From Phycisphaerae bacterium (GTDB lineage: Bacteria > Planctomycetota > Phycisphaerae > UBA1845 > UTPLA1), in contig JAHBXN010000009.1 in assembly GCA_019636475.1 (NCBI GenBank), positions 1-64,000 on the forward strand: a stretch of DNA of 64,000 nt. The letters are read 5' to 3'. Under the pieces are notes generated by a model. The model was not told the origin of the DNA and made no database searches. It saw only the letters and a list, made by a program, of their open reading frames with translations. Below are positions 28,409-40,575 of this stretch, in pieces. Numbering within the stretch: position 1 is the stretch's first letter; every line of letters begins with the position of its first letter. Made by a program: the position numbers and the translations under genes.

Positions 28409-29860
28409 TCAGCCGACACTTCCTTCGAGCGACACTTCGAGCAGCTTCTGCGCCTCGACGGCGAACTCCATCGGCAACTCACGAAACACTTCCTTGCAGA
28501 ATCCGTTCACGATCAGCCCCACCGCGGCTTCTGTCGGGATGCCGCGCTGATTGCAGTAGAACAGCTGATCCTCGCCGATCTTCGACGTGGTGGCTTCGTG
28601 CTCCATGTGAGCCGTGCTGTTCTTGACCTCGATGTAAGGGAAGGTATGCGCTCCGCACTCGCTGCCGATCAGCATCGAGTCGCACTGGGTGAAGTTGCGC
28701 GCGTTATCCGCGCCGCGATTGATCTTCACCCCGCCACGATAGGTGTTCTGGCCGCGCTGCGCCGAAATACCCTTGCTGATGATGTAGCTTTTCGTGTTCC
28801 TGCCGATGTGGATCATCTTCGTGCCGGTGTCGGCCTGCTGCCGGCGGCTGGTCAGCGCGACGGAGTAAAACTCACCCACCGAATCATCGCCCTGCAGAAT
28901 GCAGCTCGGATATTTCCAGGTGATGGCCGATCCCGTTTCAACCTGCGTCCACGAGATATGCGATCGCCGGCCCTGGCACTTGCCCCGCTTCGTGACGAAA
29001 TTGTAAATTCCGCCCTTGCCATCCTTATCACCCTGGTACCAGTTCTGAATGGTGGAGTATTTGATCGATGCGTCATCGAGCGCAACGAGTTCCACGACGG
29101 CCGCATGCAGCTGGTTTTCATCGCGAATCGGCGCTGTGCAGCCCTCCAGGTAGCTGACGCTTGCGCCTTGCTCGGCGATGATCAGCGTCCGCTCGAACTG
29201 CCCCGTGCTCTGGGCATTGATTCGAAAGTAGGTCGACAAGTCCATCGGGCACTTCACGCCTTTGGGCACGAAGACGAAAGAGCCGTCGCTGAAAACAGCG
29301 GAATTCAATGTAGCGAAGAAATTGTCCGTGATCGGCACCACCGATCCGAGGTACTTCTGAACCAGTTCGGGATGATTGTGAACCGCCTCGGTGAATGAGC
29401 AGAAGATAATGCCCAGCTCGGCCAGCTTCTCCTTGAACGTCGTACCGACTGACACGCTGTCGAAAACGACGTCGACCGCGACTCCCGCCAGCGCCGCCCG
29501 CTCGTTCAGTGGAATGCCGAGCTTCTCATACGTCTCAAGCAGCCGCGGATCGACCTCGTCCAGACTCTTCGGGCGGTCTTTCTGCTGCTTCGGCGCTGAA
29601 TAGTAAATGATGTCCTGGTAGTCAATCTTCGGGTATTTCAGATTCGCCCAATTCGGCTCGTTCATCGTCAGCCAATGGCGATACGCCTTCAGCCGCCAGT
29701 CGAGGAGCCACTGCGGCTCTTCTTTCTTCGCGGAGATGAAGCGAACGATGTCCTCGTTGAGGCCCTTGGGAGCAGCATCGGCTTCGATGTCGGTCACGAA
29801 GCCGTACTTGTACTCCTGCGAGGCCCATTTATTCAGTGTCTCGGTGGAACCGCTGCTCAT
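28409..29860 (-). CDS. sufB: Fe-S assembly scaffold protein SufB
   Basis: Core scaffold on which the cluster forms, 483 residues. Conserved blocks are visible: [55 protein letters not shown], and the terminal [16 protein letters not shown] and LFYCNQRGI. Same-strand order is rrf2, A-type carrier, sufB, sufC, sufD, sufSE. Length and residues are standard. Confidence 0.95.
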
Positions 29861-29952
29861 TAAGCCGATACTCCCAATCTCGCCGCTCGCCGGTGTGGTT
29901 AATCAGGTCCGCGCGGCATCAGTCGCCGACCCGATCCGGTCACGGCCGATGT

Positions 29953-30285
29953 CTAGGCGCTGAAGCTGCTGCCGCATCCACAGGTGTGCGTCGCGTTGGG
30001 ATTGTTGAACACAAAGCCCCGACCCATCACCTCATCCTTGAAATCCACGGCGACGCCATCCAGGTAGATCTGACTCTTGGGATCGCAGATCACCTTTACG
30101 CCGTGAACGTCCCATTCCTCATCGTTCTCGTTCCGTGCCTCGGTCAGATCGAGCGTATATGAAAATCCGCTGCAGCCTCCGCCTTTGACTCCGACACGCA
30201 AGTAGGTCTTTTCATTGTCCAGCTTCTGGTCCGCAATGATCGTCTTGACTTCGGCAGCCGCTCGTTCGGTCAGTGCAATCGGCAT
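29953..30285 (-). CDS. A-type Fe-S carrier (HesB/IscA/SufA/ErpA family)
   Basis: A 110-residue HesB-family protein with the three conserved cysteines, one in KGGGCSGF and two in HTCGCGSSF at the C-terminus. It takes clusters from SufBCD to apo-proteins. It lies between the regulator and sufB on the same strand. SufA against ErpA cannot be decided from the sequence alone. Confidence 0.9.
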   Translation of the reverse strand: MPIALTERAAAEVKTIIADQKLDNEKTYLRVGVKGGGCSGFSYTLDLTEARNENDEEWDVHGVKVICDPKSQIYLDGVAVDFKDEVMGRGFVFNNPNATHTCGCGSSFSA

Positions 30286-30372
30286 CGTCGATTTCTCCTC
30301 GCGTCACGCCGCCTGCTGGGCGGCGACGACATCCACTCAGGGCCCGCGCCAACGCGAGCCCGCTGCTTTCAT

Positions 30373-30891
30373 TCACACCTCAACGGCCGCGCCGCCGGTC
30401 ACCTCGCTGGTTCGACATGCGGCCGACCTGCACTCGCTGCCGTGAACCGTCAGTGTCGCGGCGGATTGGGGATCCTTCGCATCACGGACGATCTCAGCCA
30501 GCGTGACTTGCAGGAGGAAATTCTCCAGCCGGGCCTGGATGCGCTGAATCGGCAACTTCACGGGGCACAGCTCGGAAAGCTCACACACCGGATCAGGCAT
30601 CGGCGAATGATTTGAGCACTGCACGAAGCGGATCGGCCCCTCAATCGCCTGGATGATTGCCGATAGCGTGACAGCGTCGGGACTTTTCGCCAGCGAATAG
30701 CCGCCTTTGGCACCACGAATCGATCGAACCAACTCGCTCTGGCTCAACGTCTTAAGCACGTTCATCAACAGAGCGGTCGGAACGCGGAATTTCTCAGCAA
30801 TCTCCCGCGCCGTGCACAGCCGGTCACGATTCTGCGCCAAATGGGCCAGCGCAATGATCGCGTAATCCGTCTTTCGGGTTAGCGCAAACAC
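30373..30891 (-). CDS. Rrf2-family transcription regulator, Fe-S-sensing type
   Basis: A 172-residue Rrf2-family protein starting with GTG at 30891. A winged helix-turn-helix is at the N-terminus (DYAIIALAHLAQN ... TAREIAEKF ... LLMNVLKTLSQSELVRSIRGAKGGY). Three cysteines in VQC, VCELSELC lie where IscR/SufR-type proteins hold a cluster. It heads the suf operon and probably senses its product, repressing the promoter at 30963-30991. The C-terminal tail has two further cysteines (SECRSAAC) of unknown role. Confidence 0.87.
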   Translation of the reverse strand: MFALTRKTDYAIIALAHLAQNRDRLCTAREIAEKFRVPTALLMNVLKTLSQSELVRSIRGAKGGYSLAKSPDAVTLSAIIQAIEGPIRFVQCSNHSPMPDPVCELSELCPVKLPIQRIQARLENFLLQVTLAEIVRDAKDPQSAATLTVHGSECRSAACRTSEVTGGAAVEV

Positions 30892-30962
30892 GTCAAACCC
30901 ATTTCAGGAACCCTCGGATCAGCGGCCGACAACCGGCCATCCCAAAACCCAAGAGCTGAGAC

Positions 30963-30991
30963 AATATAGTACCGAACCGGTACGCATTCAA
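30963..30991 (-). promoter_or_regulatory. suf operon promoter with dyad operator in the spacer
   Basis: On the minus strand TTGAAT (30991-30986) and TATATT (30968-30963) are separated by exactly 17 bases, a near-consensus sigma-70 promoter. The spacer contains the perfect dyad GTACCG-N3-CGGTAC (30969-30983). A protein bound there would block RNA polymerase; the Rrf2 protein encoded 70 bases downstream is the obvious candidate. Confidence 0.75.
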
Positions 30992-31147
30992 GGCGCGGTT
31001 TGATCAACGGCTGGACATGATTTGAAAGCGGCTGAATTGGTTCAGCGGCAGCCCGGTTCAGACGCTGGCGAGGCAGTCGGCAGATTCCGACAGCCGGTGC
31101 CCGAGGGCTCCACCGCGACCGTCGTTGCTGAAGTGCTCGTCTGGTCG

Positions 31148-34100
31148 TCAGTTGCGCAATTCCGACCAGGACATCACGCGCTTCTTCGGGTTCGGCTCGG
31201 TGATTGTGATCATCTGGGGGATGACGCGAGCGCCGATCGTCGTGCTCGCGGCAGAGGGCGTCACGCTCACCACATATGGATCGGTTACAGACCGGCTATC
31301 GAAGTAAATCTTCAGCTTGTACGAGGTGTTCGGATTCACACCGCCGAAATGGGCCCAAAGTGGCTCAGTGCCAGAGAAGCCTCGGGCCGTGCCGATATCC
31401 CGGCGCCCGAGATAGGTCTTTCCGCTCGCGCTCCACAATTCCACTCGCACGCCCACAGCCGCGCAGTTCGTCGCACCCTCTCCGCGGCCAATCAATCGGA
31501 CCTTCAAGTAGTCCGCATTGTTGGTCTGATTTTGAAAGAGCATCGCGGACGCACCGACGCGCGTGACGGAGAGATCCAGATCGCCGTCGTTGTCATAATC
31601 CACAAAGACGACATCCATGATATCGCCTGTTGCCCGAAGACCAGCTCCGATGCGTTTGAACGTGCCGTCACCCTGGTTCTCATGGACAAGCAGCTTGCCT
31701 TCGGGGCCGGCAATGACCAGATCAAGATCACCATCGTTATCAAGGTCACCCCAGGCGCACGTCCTCATGCCGGTTGCGCCATTGGAACCCACACCGGGAT
31801 TGAGATTGACTCCGGAGCTGCCGTTGATGTTCGCAAATGTCCCGCTCAGCGTGGCCCAGTTCACATTGTTTCGCCACAGATATCCGCTGTATCCTTTCTC
31901 AAAGCGCGGCACATAGAGATCCAGATCACCATCATTGTCATAGTCCGCCCAGGCCGAACCGATCTTTTTGTCATTCCCGGTCACGACGGAGATGCCATAG
32001 TTGTTGCGAGCGTAGGTGCCTTCGCCCTTGGACACGAACAGCTTGCCGCCGGAGTAATGATAGAAGAGGTCCACATACCCGTCGTTGTTGACATCTCCGG
32101 CGCTGATGAAATCTCCATTGCCGAAATTGCCCGAGGTATGAAGTCCGTACCCGGACCCGTTCGTACCGACCAGTGACACCGATGTGCCACCCTGATTGAG
32201 TCCGATGTAGTTGCCGTTCTCCGAACACTGCACGATATCGATCCAGCCGTCGCGGTTCACGTCGATGGCCGCGACGCCTTCGTTGTTCGTCGGCGCGGAG
32301 AATCCGGCGTTTCCTGCGCTGGACAGGCCGCCGGAGCCGTTATTGGTATACAGCCGTTCCGTGTCATAGCCGGAGTTCGCACACGAGATCCAGAAATCAA
32401 GGTGACCGTCATTGCTGATATCGAGCAGCGCGCCCTGGCGATAATTGTTGCCGCCGCCGAACGTGGCACTTGTAAAGCCGACTCCGGCGTTGTTATTGGT
32501 CAGAAATTTCGCGGTGTTGCCGGTCAGAATCACGTCCAAGTCACCGTCGCCGTCGAAGTCGCCCCAGTGAGCGGCCGCGGCGAAGGTGTCGGCATTTGAC
32601 GAGGACGACACCGCGAAGCCCGTAGCGGATGACACATCGATGAACCGGGCGCTTTTCACGCTGACGTTGTCGATTCCCCAGGATTCGTCAGCCATCCCGC
32701 CACCGGATTCGTCCGTCAACGCCCCCATGAACGCCAGCGTCGTGACACTGGATGACGCCGTGAACACGACTTCCACCGTGCGGAAGATGCCGTCCTTCCA
32801 ATTGCTGCTGAAGCCGTAATGCCCGCTCTGGTCCGGAGGGTATGGATAGGAGTAGCCATCGTTAATCCAGCCGGAATCGTGGATGAACGTATGATTGAAG
32901 ATTATCGTTCCATCCATGCTGACCTGAAATGCGTCGGGACCATAAGGCCCCGGCGTTCCGTCCCATGAATCAATCGCGTAGAGATCGAATGTCAGTGAGT
33001 AAACCGTGCCCGGCGTCGTATTCAATGCCAGCTTCACCGAGTTGTTCCGGTGCTGACCGAGGAATTTCGTGAACGTGGCGTTATTCGTCACCGTCGTATT
33101 CGACCACTCCGGCCCCACGCTGCCCTCGAAGTCGTTGACATAGGGTGTATTCGCGGGAATCAGACATGATGCAGTCGGCGCCGCGATCATGTACCGTTCG
33201 GTCGCGTTTGAGCCTCCGAGGCTGGTCTCCAACTGTGAGAAAGAGCCGAGCGATCCGCCCGACCATCGCGCCATGTTCAGGTTGTTCGTCTCGTCAGAGA
33301 TCGCGACGATGATCTCTCCGGCAGCCGAATTCGGCACCAACTGAACGACCTGGAGATTATCGGCCAGATCGGATCCTGAACCCCCGTCCCACTGCCATGA
33401 GCTCCCGTTCCAGGTGGCAGTGCGCGCCCGACGGGAGTTTGCGCCGGCATCCTTGCAATACACATACAGACCGGTGCTCCCACAGGGCTCGAACGCGACA
33501 TCGAAGGCCCGGCGATCATTAAACGGCGCCTTCGACTCGATCTCAGTCGCGGAACCCCATGCGCTGCCGCTCCACGCGTTCGCCCAATATTCGGAGCCGC
33601 CAGTCAAAATGCCGCAAATGACCTTGTTGGAGGTCGGGTCGGCTGCCAGCCGAATCCATCGAGGCTGCGAGCCGACCGAGGGCATGTTCGTAACCGACGA
33701 CCATGTGCTGCCATTCCACTTGATCGAACGCGGCTGATTGCTCGACGCATTGGAATAGGCGATCAGACAGTTTGAGGATTTGGACTCGTACACCGCGGCG
33801 AAACTCTCGTAATCCTTGACGGAGTTCGTCTCAATCGTGGTGACCGACCCGAAACTCGCGCCATTCCAGATGGCGGCGTACAACTTGCCGTTTGAATTAC
33901 CTGCGAGCAGCATGATTTCGTTGCTATCCGGCTGCGGCGTCAGGCTGATGAACCAAACCTGATTGCTTTCCGGCAGCGTGAGAAATGACTCGGACGAAAC
34001 CGAAGCGCCGGAATAGGTGCGATAGCCAACCTTCTTCTTGCCTGCGTCCTCTGCCCAGTAGGCGGCCAGTAAATCCCCGGACGCCTGTTCGTAAGCGAGA

Positions 34101-34459
34101 TCAAACGCGCGCTTGGCGAACTGGCCCGTATTCGAACAGACTTCGATTGGCGAGCTCCATGTCGAGCCGTTGAAGAAGAGCAGATTGACGTCCTCGTCGT
34201 AATCGAGCGAACCGAACGCGATTTCGTTGCGGGTCGGGCAGTTTCTTGCGACCACCCACGCCGGCTCGCGACCGACGCTTGGCATCGCGGCGGAGGAACT
34301 CCAGTTCGAACCACTCAGCGTACTATATCGAGGACTCGTCGCGGACTTTCTGCTGAAGGTGGCGACCACCGGTGTCAGGTCGTTGCCCGTCGCCTCGCGC
34401 GGTACGACCAACGCTGTGAGCAGAAGCCAGAGCAGCAGAAGTAATCGGTTGATTTTCAC
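31148..34459 (-). CDS. Large secreted FG-GAP/ASPIC repeat protein
   Basis: A protein of 1103 residues from GTG 34459, chosen because GAGCGAGAAAGG precedes it and KINRLLLLLWLLLTALVVPREATG follows as a signal peptide. The first half has propeller-like repeats of the pattern WNGSTWSS...MPSVGSQPRWI. The second half has FG-GAP/VCBS repeats with Ca-binding DxDxDGxxD (DGDGDLDVIL, NNDGYVDLFY, NDGDLDLYVPR, NDGDLDLVIAG, NDGDLDLSVTR), then an ASPIC/UnbV-like domain (VGVRVELWSASGKTYLGRRD). The last residues KKRVMSWSELRN match the tail of the neighbouring protein. Probably an extracellular or surface protein; function unknown. Confidence 0.8.
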   Translation of the reverse strand: MKINRLLLLLWLLLTALVVPREATGNDLTPVVATFSRKSATSPRYSTLSGSNWSSSAAMPSVGREPAWVVARNCPTRNEIAFGSLDYDEDVNLLFFNGSTWSSPIEVCSNTGQFAKRAFDLAYEQASGDLLAAYWAEDAGKKKVGYRTYSGASVSSESFLTLPESNQVWFISLTPQPDSNEIMLLAGNSNGKLYAAIWNGASFGSVTTIETNSVKDYESFAAVYESKSSNCLIAYSNASSNQPRSIKWNGSTWSSVTNMPSVGSQPRWIRLAADPTSNKVICGILTGGSEYWANAWSGSAWGSATEIESKAPFNDRRAFDVAFEPCGSTGLYVYCKDAGANSRRARTATWNGSSWQWDGGSGSDLADNLQVVQLVPNSAAGEIIVAISDETNNLNMARWSGGSLGSFSQLETSLGGSNATERYMIAAPTASCLIPANTPYVNDFEGSVGPEWSNTTVTNNATFTKFLGQHRNNSVKLALNTTPGTVYSLTFDLYAIDSWDGTPGPYGPDAFQVSMDGTIIFNHTFIHDSGWINDGYSYPYPPDQSGHYGFSSNWKDGIFRTVEVVFTASSSVTTLAFMGALTDESGGGMADESWGIDNVSVKSARFIDVSSATGFAVSSSSNADTFAAAAHWGDFDGDGDLDVILTGNTAKFLTNNNAGVGFTSATFGGGNNYRQGALLDISNDGHLDFWISCANSGYDTERLYTNNGSGGLSSAGNAGFSAPTNNEGVAAIDVNRDGWIDIVQCSENGNYIGLNQGGTSVSLVGTNGSGYGLHTSGNFGNGDFISAGDVNNDGYVDLFYHYSGGKLFVSKGEGTYARNNYGISVVTGNDKKIGSAWADYDNDGDLDLYVPRFEKGYSGYLWRNNVNWATLSGTFANINGSSGVNLNPGVGSNGATGMRTCAWGDLDNDGDLDLVIAGPEGKLLVHENQGDGTFKRIGAGLRATGDIMDVVFVDYDNDGDLDLSVTRVGASAMLFQNQTNNADYLKVRLIGRGEGATNCAAVGVRVELWSASGKTYLGRRDIGTARGFSGTEPLWAHFGGVNPNTSYKLKIYFDSRSVTDPYVVSVTPSAASTTIGARVIPQMITITEPNPKKRVMSWSELRN

Positions 34460-34676
34460 GCCTTTCTCGCTCCACGGGCATCGTCCGAGCGACGCCCATA
34501 CCTCCAGATGAACATCGACCAACTAAAGAATCACATTCAGGTCGCGTAATGGCCAATATGCCTCGCAACACGACCGAAAACCAGACGTGATTGACAGTGG
34601 GCTGGAAGTCGCCGTTGCCGGCGGCGCTGCATCGGAATGTCGCGGAATGAGACGTGCCCTGATCGGCCCACGCCCG

Positions 34677-34712
34677 AAAAACCACTCCGGCGAAGAAAAG
34701 AGGTATGCCGGA
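34677..34712 (-). terminator. Hairpin plus T-run after the beta-helix gene
   Basis: On the minus strand TCCGGC (34712-34707) pairs with GCCGGA (34691-34686), then GTGG and five T's. It is 53 bases after the gene ending at 34765. The rest of the 305-base gap (34460-34764) shows nothing further. Confidence 0.4.
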
Positions 34713-34764
34713 AAATCAGGATATCACGACTCAATCGGCCGGAAAGGACTCAATCGACGGCGTG

Positions 34765-36786
34765 TTATCGCTTGACCTCGCGCCAGGACACGACGCGCGG
34801 CCGCGTTGAAGTCGCCGTGCAGGCAACGGGTGTCGTGCTTGCGGCACACCCCACCGAGGCGAACCAGCTCGAATTACCACATGTGCCGCCGAGGTCCGAC
34901 ACCGTGTTTCCAGGAAAGGCATAGCTGGTCACATCCGTGACAACGACCATGCTTCCGCACTGAAGCTCAGGATAGGAGAGATTCGTCGCGATCGTGGCGC
35001 CTGACTCGCATTCCAGAATGCCGCCATCCTGAATCACAAACTTGCCGGAGGAACCCTTCACCACAAGTGAAAACCCCTTCAGATCCAATCGGCCCTCGAC
35101 GACGGTCAGATTCTGCCCACTTTGATTGAGCCGAAGATCCGATGCCAAGCGTGCCGCACCGCCGGTGCATCGCGTCTTGTTAATGGTGATGCTCTTCGGA
35201 AACACGGCATTCACACCGGCCGTGATGAGTTGATCGCCTTCGCCGTCCAGAACGATCGTCACGGCCTGGTAGCTCTGAATCGCCGTATCATTGCTCGTCA
35301 AATTTCCCGCGACGAAAATCGTTCCGCCCTGAAAATAGTTGACGGAGGTCAGAAGAAAATCCCCCCCGACCCGCATCGAACCCACGACGATCACGCTGTT
35401 GCCGCCCGTCGCGATCTCGACATTGTTGAACGCCATCCCCTGAGCGTCGATGGTCTTGTCGAATGCCACAAAACGCACGATCGACCCCGAGGCGTCAACA
35501 TCTCCCGTCGTGTGCTTCCAGTCCTTGTGCACGCCGATCTGGTCGCTAATCGTCAGCTTGCCGCTCGACTTGTCGATGTCGATGCTCGGAACCATGCCAT
35601 AGGCTCCACCCGCCGAGAGCGATTGATCACCGATGCCGTCGAATCGTATCGTGGCCGCGGGATAGCCATTCACGCTTGTGTCGGTCGTCAGGACGTTTCC
35701 AGCCACAGTGATGACACCACCGCTGAGATAGTTCACGCTCTGAATTGTCAAATCACCGTTCACGTCCATCATGCCGCTGATTGTGATGCTGTTTCCGCCG
35801 GTACTGAACAAGACACTGCCGTAGTTCATCGTCCCAGCCGTGATGGTCTTGTCGTATCCCACGAACTTCAGCGGCTGGGCGCCACAGTCGACCGCTCCCG
35901 ATATATGCGACCAATGATTAAAGACGCCGATCGGCCCCTGGATCGTCAGCGTCCCGCTCGGCTTATTGATGGTGACACTGGGCACCAGCGCGTCGGCCGC
36001 ACCCGCAATCAGGCTCTGGTCACCCGCTTGATCGAACATCAGAATGGTTCCGGGGTAGCCGATGATCGCCGTGTCGTTCGACGTCACGTTTCCTCGCACG
36101 CGAATCGTGCCGCCGTTCATGTAGTTGACCGACTGAATCGTCAGATTCCCGTCAAGAACGATCGTACCGCTGACGGTGACGCTATTGCCGCCAACGTCAT
36201 AGATCAGATCATTCAGGACCGCGCCACCAACATTGACGGTCTTGTCCCAGCCATTGAGCGTGACGCTGCCGCCGTGGTGCGCAAACGACCCGCCGGAGAT
36301 CGTCAGGTTCTTGTATACGTAGAACGTCCCGGAGGTCGCGCGAAACGACCCGCCCGTCATGGTAAACGCGCCGTTGCAATCGATCGGCGCATCGCTGCCA
36401 TGAAATGTGCCGCCCATGATCGAGATACCGCTGCCGCCGACGGTCAGCGTCGCACCCGAGCCCTGCGAGAGATTTCCGCCATAATCCGAGGCAATGATCA
36501 ACCCGGCGATTGAGACATTGGCTTTGAATGCGCAATCGCTAGAGGACGTCGCATCAAACTGCGCAGTGTCTCCGCTGCCCGGAATGGCGTTCCCGCTCCA
36601 GTTCCCCGCCACATTCCAATTCGAACTACCAGCGCCGCCGGTCCACGTTCGAACGGCGGCAGACACCGGAACGGCCGTCGCGAAAATCCACGCGCAGCAA
36701 AACCCGCTGCACGTCAGTGATCGCCTTGAAATGTCCAAGAGATCCTTCCCTCTATTCCGGTCGAGCACCCGCCCAACCCAGCCCAT
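34765..36786 (-). CDS. Secreted beta-helix protein with three long repeats and a shared C-terminal tail
   Basis: A protein of about 673 residues. After a long N-terminus with a signal-like segment (CCAWIFATAVPVSAAV), the mature start has GGAGSSNWNVAGNW, a pattern common in autotransporter-type beta-helix proteins. Three repeats of about 131 residues begin at GGNSVTVSG, GGNSITISG and GGNSVIVVG (near bases 36195, 35803 and 35407); each contains QSVNY or TSVNY and a GDQSL/GDQLI block. The protein ends RPRVVSWREVKR, like the FG-GAP protein. It is predicted to be an adhesin or surface structural protein. The start is uncertain; an ATG at 36843 is in frame. Confidence 0.65.
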   Translation of the reverse strand: MGWVGRVLDRNRGKDLLDISRRSLTCSGFCCAWIFATAVPVSAAVRTWTGGAGSSNWNVAGNWSGNAIPGSGDTAQFDATSSSDCAFKANVSIAGLIIASDYGGNLSQGSGATLTVGGSGISIMGGTFHGSDAPIDCNGAFTMTGGSFRATSGTFYVYKNLTISGGSFAHHGGSVTLNGWDKTVNVGGAVLNDLIYDVGGNSVTVSGTIVLDGNLTIQSVNYMNGGTIRVRGNVTSNDTAIIGYPGTILMFDQAGDQSLIAGAADALVPSVTINKPSGTLTIQGPIGVFNHWSHISGAVDCGAQPLKFVGYDKTITAGTMNYGSVLFSTGGNSITISGMMDVNGDLTIQSVNYLSGGVITVAGNVLTTDTSVNGYPAATIRFDGIGDQSLSAGGAYGMVPSIDIDKSSGKLTISDQIGVHKDWKHTTGDVDASGSIVRFVAFDKTIDAQGMAFNNVEIATGGNSVIVVGSMRVGGDFLLTSVNYFQGGTIFVAGNLTSNDTAIQSYQAVTIVLDGEGDQLITAGVNAVFPKSITINKTRCTGGAARLASDLRLNQSGQNLTVVEGRLDLKGFSLVVKGSSGKFVIQDGGILECESGATIATNLSYPELQCGSMVVVTDVTSYAFPGNTVSDLGGTCGNSSWFASVGCAASTTPVACTATSTRPRVVSWREVKR

Positions 36787-37405
36787 CGACCCTCGCCTCG
36801 AATCAAACCGCTCCCAGCAAATATCAAACTCGGATCGCCACAATGCAACTTGAGATCACTTCTCATGTCCGCTATCCCGATTCCTCCCAGCCAAACCGGA
36901 CCACGCCCCAATCAGAAATAAAGGAGCCCCCATCCGAAGGCGGAAAGCGGAATTTCGTTGACACAACACACCACTCGACGTTATAAAGTAGGGCTCGCGA
37001 TCGGCTTGGCCGGGCGATGTTTGCCTTAACTCCTTAGCCTACAAATGCTTAGGATGGGGTTAAGCCGCAGGCGGCGTCGCGATGAACGGGATTTCATCCG
37101 GCTGATCGAGGGTCCGCCACTCATCTGTTTCCGGCAAATCCTCACTGAGAATTGATCTGTTCGTAACGGTCAAGGACCGATACGAACGGCACGATATAGG
37201 TCGTGCGCGACGGAACACGCCGACGCGGTTCGGTGTACGGTCGCGAACGACAAGCCGGGCCCCGCAAGGGGACGGTGATTCGGCCGGCCTTCTATTTGTA
37301 AATGGCCGAAAATCGGACGTGACCGGCAGGTTTGCCGGCGTCGTCGGGAGTTGTAGTAAGATGTCGGTGACGACGAAACTGCAGTTGAAGGAAAAGAGCA
37401 TCGAT
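36787..37405. other. 619-base divergent region between the beta-helix gene and fusA
   Basis: It contains a strong plus-strand promoter (36958-36987) and two dyads in the would-be fusA leader: a 9-base stem CTTAACTCC (37025-37033) with GGGGTTAAG (37056-37064, one G-U pair), and GCACGA-N6-TCGTGC (37189-37206). No protein-coding gene is convincing. The structured leader of roughly 410 bases could be regulatory. Confidence 0.5.
36958..36987 (+). promoter_or_regulatory. Consensus-like promoter upstream of fusA
   Basis: TTGACA (36958-36963) and TATAAA (36982-36987), spacer 18 bases. Transcription would run toward fusA, with a leader of about 410 bases. Confidence 0.65.
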
Positions 37406-39493
37406 ATGAGCGATTCACCCCTGAGCCGCCTTCGAAACGTCGGCATTTCCGCCCACATTGACTCCGGCAAGACCACGCTGACCGAGCGAATCTTGTTCTA
37501 TGCGGGCCGCATTCACTCCATCAAGGAAGTGAAGGGTGAAGGCGCGACCATGGACCATATGGAACTCGAGAAGGAACGCGGCATCACCATCACCTCCGCG
37601 GCCACCCAGGTCGAGTGGAACGAAACGAAAATCAACATCATCGACACCCCCGGGCACGTCGATTTCACCGTTGAGGTCGAGCGATCTCTCCGCGTGCTCG
37701 ACGGCGCGATCATGGTGCTTTGCGGCGTGGCCGGCGTGCAGTCACAGTCCATCACCGTTGACCGCCAGATGAAGCGCTACGGTGTTCCCCGAATCAGCTT
37801 CATCAACAAGCTCGACCGAGCCGGCGCGGATCCGGTCAACGTCATCAAGGGGATAGAGCAGAAGCTCGGACTCACCACGATCCAGATCCAGCTCCCGATC
37901 GGACTGGGCGATCAGTTGGAGGGCGTCGTCGATCTCATCAAGATGAAGGCCGCCTACTTCGACGGCGAGAAGGGCGAACGCGTGCGCTGGGAAGAGATTC
38001 CCGCGAACATGGCGGACGAAGCCCGGAACGCTCGAACCGGCATGCTCGATGCCCTCTCGCTCTATGACGACGAACTCCTCGCCATGATGCTTGAGGAGAA
38101 GCCCGTCCCCGACGATTTCATTCACAACATCCTCCGGCGGGGCACCATCGCAAACGAATTTACGCCGGTCCTGATGGGCTCGGCCTATCGCAACAAGGGC
38201 ATCCAACTCCTGCTCGATGCGATGGTTCGGTACCTCCCCTCGCCGCTGGACCGCGAGGTGTACGCCCTCGACCTGTCGAACGGCGAGGCTGAAACCGTGC
38301 TCGAATCCAATCCGGATGCCGCCACCGTCGCGCTGGCATTCAAGCTGGTTGACGAGTCATTCGGCCAGTTGACCTACATGCGAATCTACCAGGGCAGGAT
38401 CACGCGCGGCGACAAATACGTGAACACCCGCACGACGAAAAATGCCCGATTCGGGCGAATTCTGCGAATGCATGCGAACGATCGCGAGGATGTCGACTCG
38501 GCATCCACGGGTGACATCGTGGCCGTCGTCGGCATCGACTGCATCTCGGGCGACACGTTCTGCTCCGAGGGAACGAATCTCTCGATGGAATCCATGCACA
38601 TCATGGATCCCGTGATCTCATTGGCCGTCGCACCGAAGAAGACGGCGGACCGCGACAAGCTCTCCAAAGCGCTTTCGCGGTTTTCGAAGGAAGACCCGAC
38701 CTTCCACGTTTCGACCGATCATGAAACGGGACAGACGATCATCTCAGGCATGGGCGAGCTTCACCTCGACGTCTATTGCGAGCGCATTCGCCGCGAATAC
38801 AAGGTCGAACTCGAAGTCGGACAGCCGCGCGTCAGCTACCGCGAGGCGCCTTCCAAGGTTGTCGAATACAACTACAAGCACAAGAAGCAGACCGGCGGTT
38901 CGGGCCAGTTCGCCCACATCGTCGGAAAACTCGAGCCGCTCCCCGAGGGCAGCGAAAAGAACTACGAATTCGAAAACAAGGTCTTCGGCGGCCGCATCCC
39001 GACTGAATACATCCCGTCGGTCGACAAGGGCTTCCAGTCCGTGCTTGCGAAGGGACCGGTCGCCGGTTACGAGATCATCGGCGTCAAGATGATCCTGGAA
39101 GACGGATCGAGCCACGCGGTGGACTCCTCCGACATGGCGTTCCAGATCTGTGCGCGGGACGCCTTCAAGGAAACGTTCCTGCGAAGCAGCCCGATCATTC
39201 TTGAACCGATCATGAAGGTCGTCGTCGAAACGCCCAACGAATTTCAGGGCTCCATCATCGGCGACCTGTCGTCGCGCCGCGGACTCGTCCAGAACACCGA
39301 GACCATGGGGCCGATCACGGTCGTCACCGCGCTCGTCCCGCTGGCGAAGATGTTCGGCTATGCGACGGACGTGCGATCCATGTCGCAAGGCAAGGCTGGC
39401 TTCAGCATGGAATTCGATTCATACAAGCGAACTCCCAAAGTCGTACAGGACGAGATCATCGCGGCGGCGAAAGAGGCTGCCCAGAAGAAGTGA
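37406..39493 (+). CDS. fusA: Elongation factor G (spdEFG1-like)
   Basis: Ribosomal translocation GTPase, 695 residues. G1 is AHIDSGKTTLTER (Ser where most bacterial EF-Gs have Ala), G3 is DTPGHVDFT, G4 is NKLDRAGADP, and domains II to V follow (ISGMGELHLDVYCERI; GRIPTEYIPSVDKGF). The Ser in G1 is characteristic of the EF-G1 type shared by spirochaetes, planctomycetes, some deltaproteobacteria and mitochondria. The start at 37406 is preferred, with AAGAG about eight bases upstream; an ATG at 37361 is in frame. It has a partner paralogue at 47422-49452. Confidence 0.95.
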   Translation: MSDSPLSRLRNVGISAHIDSGKTTLTERILFYAGRIHSIKEVKGEGATMDHMELEKERGITITSAATQVEWNETKINIIDTPGHVDFTVEVERSLRVLDGAIMVLCGVAGVQSQSITVDRQMKRYGVPRISFINKLDRAGADPVNVIKGIEQKLGLTTIQIQLPIGLGDQLEGVVDLIKMKAAYFDGEKGERVRWEEIPANMADEARNARTGMLDALSLYDDELLAMMLEEKPVPDDFIHNILRRGTIANEFTPVLMGSAYRNKGIQLLLDAMVRYLPSPLDREVYALDLSNGEAETVLESNPDAATVALAFKLVDESFGQLTYMRIYQGRITRGDKYVNTRTTKNARFGRILRMHANDREDVDSASTGDIVAVVGIDCISGDTFCSEGTNLSMESMHIMDPVISLAVAPKKTADRDKLSKALSRFSKEDPTFHVSTDHETGQTIISGMGELHLDVYCERIRREYKVELEVGQPRVSYREAPSKVVEYNYKHKKQTGGSGQFAHIVGKLEPLPEGSEKNYEFENKVFGGRIPTEYIPSVDKGFQSVLAKGPVAGYEIIGVKMILEDGSSHAVDSSDMAFQICARDAFKETFLRSSPIILEPIMKVVVETPNEFQGSIIGDLSSRRGLVQNTETMGPITVVTALVPLAKMFGYATDVRSMSQGKAGFSMEFDSYKRTPKVVQDEIIAAAKEAAQKK

Positions 39494-40480: not shown

Positions 40481-40575
40481 GGGAGCGTCCGGGTTCCTGG
40501 TGGGCTCCGCGGTCTTCAAAGCCGTCGAGACGCTGCTTTGCAGTGTCTGGTGGGTTCGATTCCCATCCGCTCCCG
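40481..40575 (+). tRNA. selC: Selenocysteine tRNA (anticodon TCA)
   Basis: The stretch folds as a tRNA-Sec: a long acceptor GGGAGCG(T)/CCGCTCCC, the extended D-arm with TGGT loop, anticodon arm GCGGT-CTTCAAA-GCCGT with UCA, a long variable arm AGACGCTGC-TTT-GCAGTGTCT (9-base stem with one G-T), a T-arm GTGGG-TTCGATT-CCCAT, and the diagnostic G discriminator at 40575. The total of 95 bases matches bacterial tRNA-Sec. The eighth acceptor pair (T-C) is a mismatch. CCA is not encoded. A TACACT lies 15 bases upstream as a possible -10 box. Confidence 0.9.

Follow-up and report, generated by a model that had tools for sequence, protein, structure and literature searches.

Two large exported proteins, encoded next to each other in the 64,000-nucleotide stretch of DNA analysed here (the window), end in a short common peptide that appears to be a small docking or sorting tag, as yet uncharacterised, of one family of Phycisphaerae-type planctomycetes. 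One genome of this family appears to be that of Phycisphaerae bacterium Co_bin.211, in which an identical contig and gene were met, and this would place the family in the Phycisphaerae. We give an approximately even chance to the reading that this tail is a family-specific, modular and uncleaved C-terminal docking tag, carried by few exported proteins and bound by an envelope partner that would exist only in this family. The features concerned are as follows.

31148..34522, minus strand: exported FG-GAP/ASPIC-type protein, 1124 aa (translation, Pfam, orthologues in 10 further family genomes)
31151..31186, minus strand: C-terminal tail of the FG-GAP protein, KKRVMSWSELRN (translation, kept in orthologues)
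34765..36843, minus strand: exported beta-helix-like protein, 692 aa when read as the longest ORF (translation, orthologues in G001 and G007)
34768..34803, minus strand: C-terminal tail of the beta-helix protein, RPRVVSWREVKR (translation, kept in orthologues)

Both translations end as the earlier note had read them, the FG-GAP protein in ...ITITEPNPKKRVMSWSELRN and the beta-helix protein in ...TATSTRPRVVSWREVKR. The signal peptides claimed for them were also recovered in the hydropathy scan as hydrophobic N-terminal stretches, INRLLLLLWLLLTALVVPREATG and LTCSGFCCAWIFATAVPVSA, respectively. The FG-GAP protein is composed, in order, of N-terminal repeats (residues ~60-450), a choice-of-anchor-like domain (~456-620), FG-GAP repeats (Pfam E 1.9e-32), an ASPIC/UnbV-like end, for which only a weak Pfam score was obtained in the G007 orthologue (E 0.02), and the tail. 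Its body matches known proteins with ASPIC/UnbV and FG-GAP domains, and the tail follows the point at which the ASPIC/UnbV domain usually ends, whereas the sister-family homologues continue there in another, unshared extension. The Pfam scan assigned no confident family to the beta-helix protein, which is named from its repeat pattern; its start was placed at the ATG at 36786 in the earlier note, and the longest ORF begins at 36843. Upstream of the tail, no similarity between the two bodies was detectable, in agreement with the claim that the proteins are otherwise unrelated. The structure models have mean pLDDT values of 36 and 42, a confidence too low to judge whether the tail is free.

In the 4.41 Mb of the source genome, the two window tails are the only matches to the DNA pattern R-V-x-[ST]-W-x-E-[hydrophobic], and its reversed control matches nothing. 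A looser DNA pattern gives 15 matches, among which only the window tails terminate large reading frames. In a sample of 0.86 Mb (40 stretches and the window), [IV]xxWxE[VIL] lies near the C-terminus of 2 of the 627 ORFs, again the two window proteins. On these counts a chance pair was rejected. The pair is far beyond chance, yet confined to two adjacent genes of the same strand, and the source genome alone cannot establish a tag, while the family genomes can. The earlier note had held that occurrence in only these two proteins would speak against a tag; this is what was found inside the source genome, but the tails in related genomes overturn the objection.

At E<1e-3, the tail profile, with the consensus [KR][IV]xxWxE[VIL]xN, detected 17 genes spread over 14 of the 17 family genomes, all with the match at the extreme C-terminus, and none in the 97 other genomes of the order at the same threshold. 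Among the 392 genomes of a phylum sample, the source genome was the sole match. No wider distribution was found in this sample, the best other matches inspected beyond the family being internal or lying in small frames; among the genomes searched, the tail is thus peculiar to this lineage, as had been supposed. When the C-terminal domain of the FG-GAP protein was used as the query, orthologues with complete ends were found in 10 further family genomes, all of them with the tail (for example KKRIKTWREIVNRS, RIIQWSEVRNRASGG and TIMKWKENVNKPAL). The beta-helix orthologues in G007 and G001 keep it as well (ends KKKVIQWTEVRNRAS and KTKIVKWREVRNSSS), and the sister-family homologues of the FG-GAP protein lack it and have different ends. 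The scan of related planctomycetes placed the tail on proteins of exported type, signal peptides being recognisable on nearly all 17 from hydropathy rather than with a trained predictor. Start positions are uncertain for the beta-helix protein of G007 and the FG-GAP protein of G006, and contig ends cut two orthologues. Most of the family genomes are draft assemblies, their genes were called mechanically, and the tail search would miss tails without W or E. Most family genomes have just one tailed protein and the others two, and a general genome-wide tag was rejected on this count.

The 17 tailed proteins fall into five architectures, which have only the tail in common or share pieces shuffled in different ways, and the tail is therefore modular. 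Three of these proteins were added by the tail profile. In a repeat-only protein (G011), the repeat domain of the FG-GAP protein joins the tail directly; in a protein with a beta-helix (G009), it is the anchor-like domain of the FG-GAP protein that does so, and the third protein (G006) is unrelated. Two types of beta-helix protein and an unrelated protein are thus among the carriers. That the tail is modular is our chief reason to regard it as a signal rather than as part of one fold. Moreover, W and E are invariant, and in a W-anchored listing the third residue ahead of W is I or V throughout. Conservation amounts to 64% in the tail core vs 43% in the K/P/S-rich linker immediately upstream. 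Synonymous codon positions diverge between tails while the residues are kept (for example in the two G007 tails, both KVIQWTEVR), which indicates selection on the protein. If the shared feature were a DNA or RNA element, with the peptide common to both proteins by chance, this would agree with the position of both window copies at gene ends; such an element is extremely improbable, as third codon positions are free to vary while all 14 genomes keep the residues, and the DNA element was rejected on this synonymous divergence. The tail may also be the inherited end of an ancestral FG-GAP protein, spread by recombination of gene ends and devoid of a sorting role, perhaps with a stabilising effect on the fold or the C-terminus. 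This explanation is possible, if somewhat doubtful. The G011 and G009 proteins resemble shortened FG-GAP relatives that kept their end, and the FG-GAP and beta-helix genes, which are neighbours in the window and overlap in G007, could exchange ends more easily. However, five different bodies precede the tail, the linker is free to vary while the core is kept, and there is no codon sign of recent copying.

The same gene pairs bear on the reading of the tail as an assembly tag for one complex, in which the tailed proteins would bind a common scaffold or one another in an extracellular structure, with no role in export. A beta-propeller and a beta-helix would be the partners in the two genomes with adjacent genes, and the tails are similar within a genome: in each two-tail genome the tail of the same genome ranks among the top 3 of 11 (n=3 genomes only). 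Most family genomes, however, have a single tailed protein, and the assembly tag is quite unlikely. The neighbourhoods of the tailed genes were read over 20 kb, and no common enzyme was recognised beside them, including the processing enzyme whose co-occurrence the earlier note had proposed to test. The common locus of these genes has EF-G, Rrf2 and Suf genes as neighbours, and elsewhere the neighbours are other genes. Tailed genes stand at the same place in several family genomes, near Rrf2/Suf genes, EF-G or both, at the following loci.

28409-36843 and 37319-39493: loci of shared placement in the window
L170, L171, L173, L178-L181: loci of shared placement in other stretches

A tRNA-Sec gene is predicted at 40481-40575 of the window, approximately 1 kb downstream of the EF-G gene.

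The C-terminal domains of type IX secretion, known as Por tags, are folded domains of approximately 70-100 residues. They occupy the C-terminus of large exported proteins, as the window tail does, but the latter has only approximately 10 residues, and no Pfam or NCBIfam match to such a domain was obtained in either window protein. The PEP-CTERM, GlyGly-CTERM and MYXO-CTERM tags are tripartite and consist of a motif, a transmembrane helix and a basic end (PMC11980579, PMC6219818). The CTERM tags of the exosortase, rhombosortase and myxosortase systems are likewise short, lineage-specific and C-terminal, and sit on signal-peptide proteins of differing architecture; unlike the window tail, which has no helix and occurs on one or two proteins, they include a helix and are often carried by many proteins. 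A cleaved, membrane-spanning tag of this kind would account for the terminal position, the lineage specificity and the exported carriers. However, the last 60 residues of all 17 tailed proteins contain no hydrophobic segment (19-residue hydropathy at most 1.2), no transmembrane helix and basic cluster follow the motif, the tail itself being the protein end, and the NCBIfam scan of both window proteins gave no match to a tag model. Moreover, PEP-CTERM-like ends occur separately in the family genomes, on other proteins. CTERM and sortase tags were therefore rejected for want of a preceding transmembrane segment and of a library model match, and the probability left to the cleaved kind is negligible. 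The proposal of the earlier note that the tail could be a secretion or surface-attachment tag accordingly stands as regards its terminal position, lineage restriction, exported carriers and five architectures, and falls short in that the tail is not built like a CTERM tag, marks one or two proteins per genome and has no processing enzyme recognised beside it. Points against the docking tag that we favour include this low number, which sets the tail apart from general sorting systems, and the lack of an adjacent partner enzyme.

For this docking tag, we infer that the tail is bound by a partner and not cleaved, and that the outcome is secretion or surface attachment. The tailed protein would be exported by Sec, after which its body would fold, and the linker, presumably flexible, would display the tail as a short strand-like peptide. 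An envelope partner present only in the family would bind this peptide and carry the protein across, or onto, the cell surface. The most likely candidate for such a partner is, tentatively, the type II/type IV pilus-like machine of the family, as suggested by a similar W-x-E end on the protein in the GspK/PilX position, which was found through whole-genome searches.

G000:C3:37972-39114 (L214; L232:9913-11118): pilin-like protein, GspK/PilX position, with C-terminal PxTxLxWxE

In G008, the tail profile has a borderline match (E 0.75) at the very end of this pilin-like protein. In 15 of the 17 family genomes, homologues of this protein have the common end P-x-T-[IVL]-L-x-W-x-E, with P, T, L, W and E invariant and the preceding residues variable. 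The protein has no confident Pfam or NCBIfam family of its own. Its gene has prepilin-motif genes on one side and PilM, PilN, PilO/GspM and a GspB-like gene on the other, which corresponds to the GspK/PilX position; in the source genome, the W-x-E protein is surrounded by these four genes and by three proteins with a prepilin motif, and in G014 a secretin falls within the same cluster. Only two full-length homologues were seen outside the family (G018, G133), and they lack the PxTxLxWxE end.

The exoprotein-tail and pilin-tail profiles align in register (hhalign P 1.5e-4), with few shared residues, and the agreement may be due to chance. The pilin-tail profile finds its own protein in 15 genomes and, beyond it, weakly, the FG-GAP tails of G002 and G013 (E 0.7-0.8); most tailed exoproteins are not picked out by this reverse search. 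It also speaks against the link that the pilin-like protein came from searches of whole genomes, in each of which, as roughly estimated from residue frequencies, chance would supply a few tenths of a protein end of the form hydrophobic-hydrophobic-x-W-x-E-x. G003 and G010 possess the pilin-like tail with no tailed exoprotein, which indicates that the two tails are not strictly coupled. The resemblance is treated as a lead, and a real functional link between the pilin-like end and the exoprotein tail would be rather doubtful. The same low probability is given to the more specific idea that the tail may be a linear signal for the type II/type IV pilus-like machine and imitate the W-x-E peptide at the C-terminus of the tip pilin, the protein in the GspK/PilX position; tailed exoproteins would then share its docking site or ride the filament tip.

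Two features of type II substrates are present: a hydrophobic stretch corresponding to an N-terminal Sec/Tat signal in both window proteins and in most other full-length tailed proteins, and genes of the type II/type IV pilus-like cluster in the source genome. Type II substrates are likewise exported folded proteins, and the family's protein with the similar W-x-E end takes the place of a component of the GspHIJK endopilus tip. These substrates are described as having no sequence in common, and a 2023 review regards their recognition as unresolved (PMC10128026). For them, a linear tag at the C-terminus would be a novelty, and the pilin resemblance, if real, would bear on cargo recognition by type II secretion machines.

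Short C-terminal tags have opened up whole sorting systems, as with exosortase, rhombosortase and myxosortase. The present tail differs in build, having no membrane helix, and is restricted to one family, and its partner should therefore be findable by phylogenetic profiling. Other ends were observed in sister families. Four FG-GAP homologues of the sister family f8 (L118, L123, L115, L119) have a different conserved end of approximately 45 residues (..RxxxGFxxPxxD...LDQN), which these four do not share with other proteins. Two large beta-helix homologues of sister families (L128, L129) have tails that resemble each other, both basic and with a tryptophan (..MWGALRG.. and ..MWGLLRG..), which are possibly another lineage tail.
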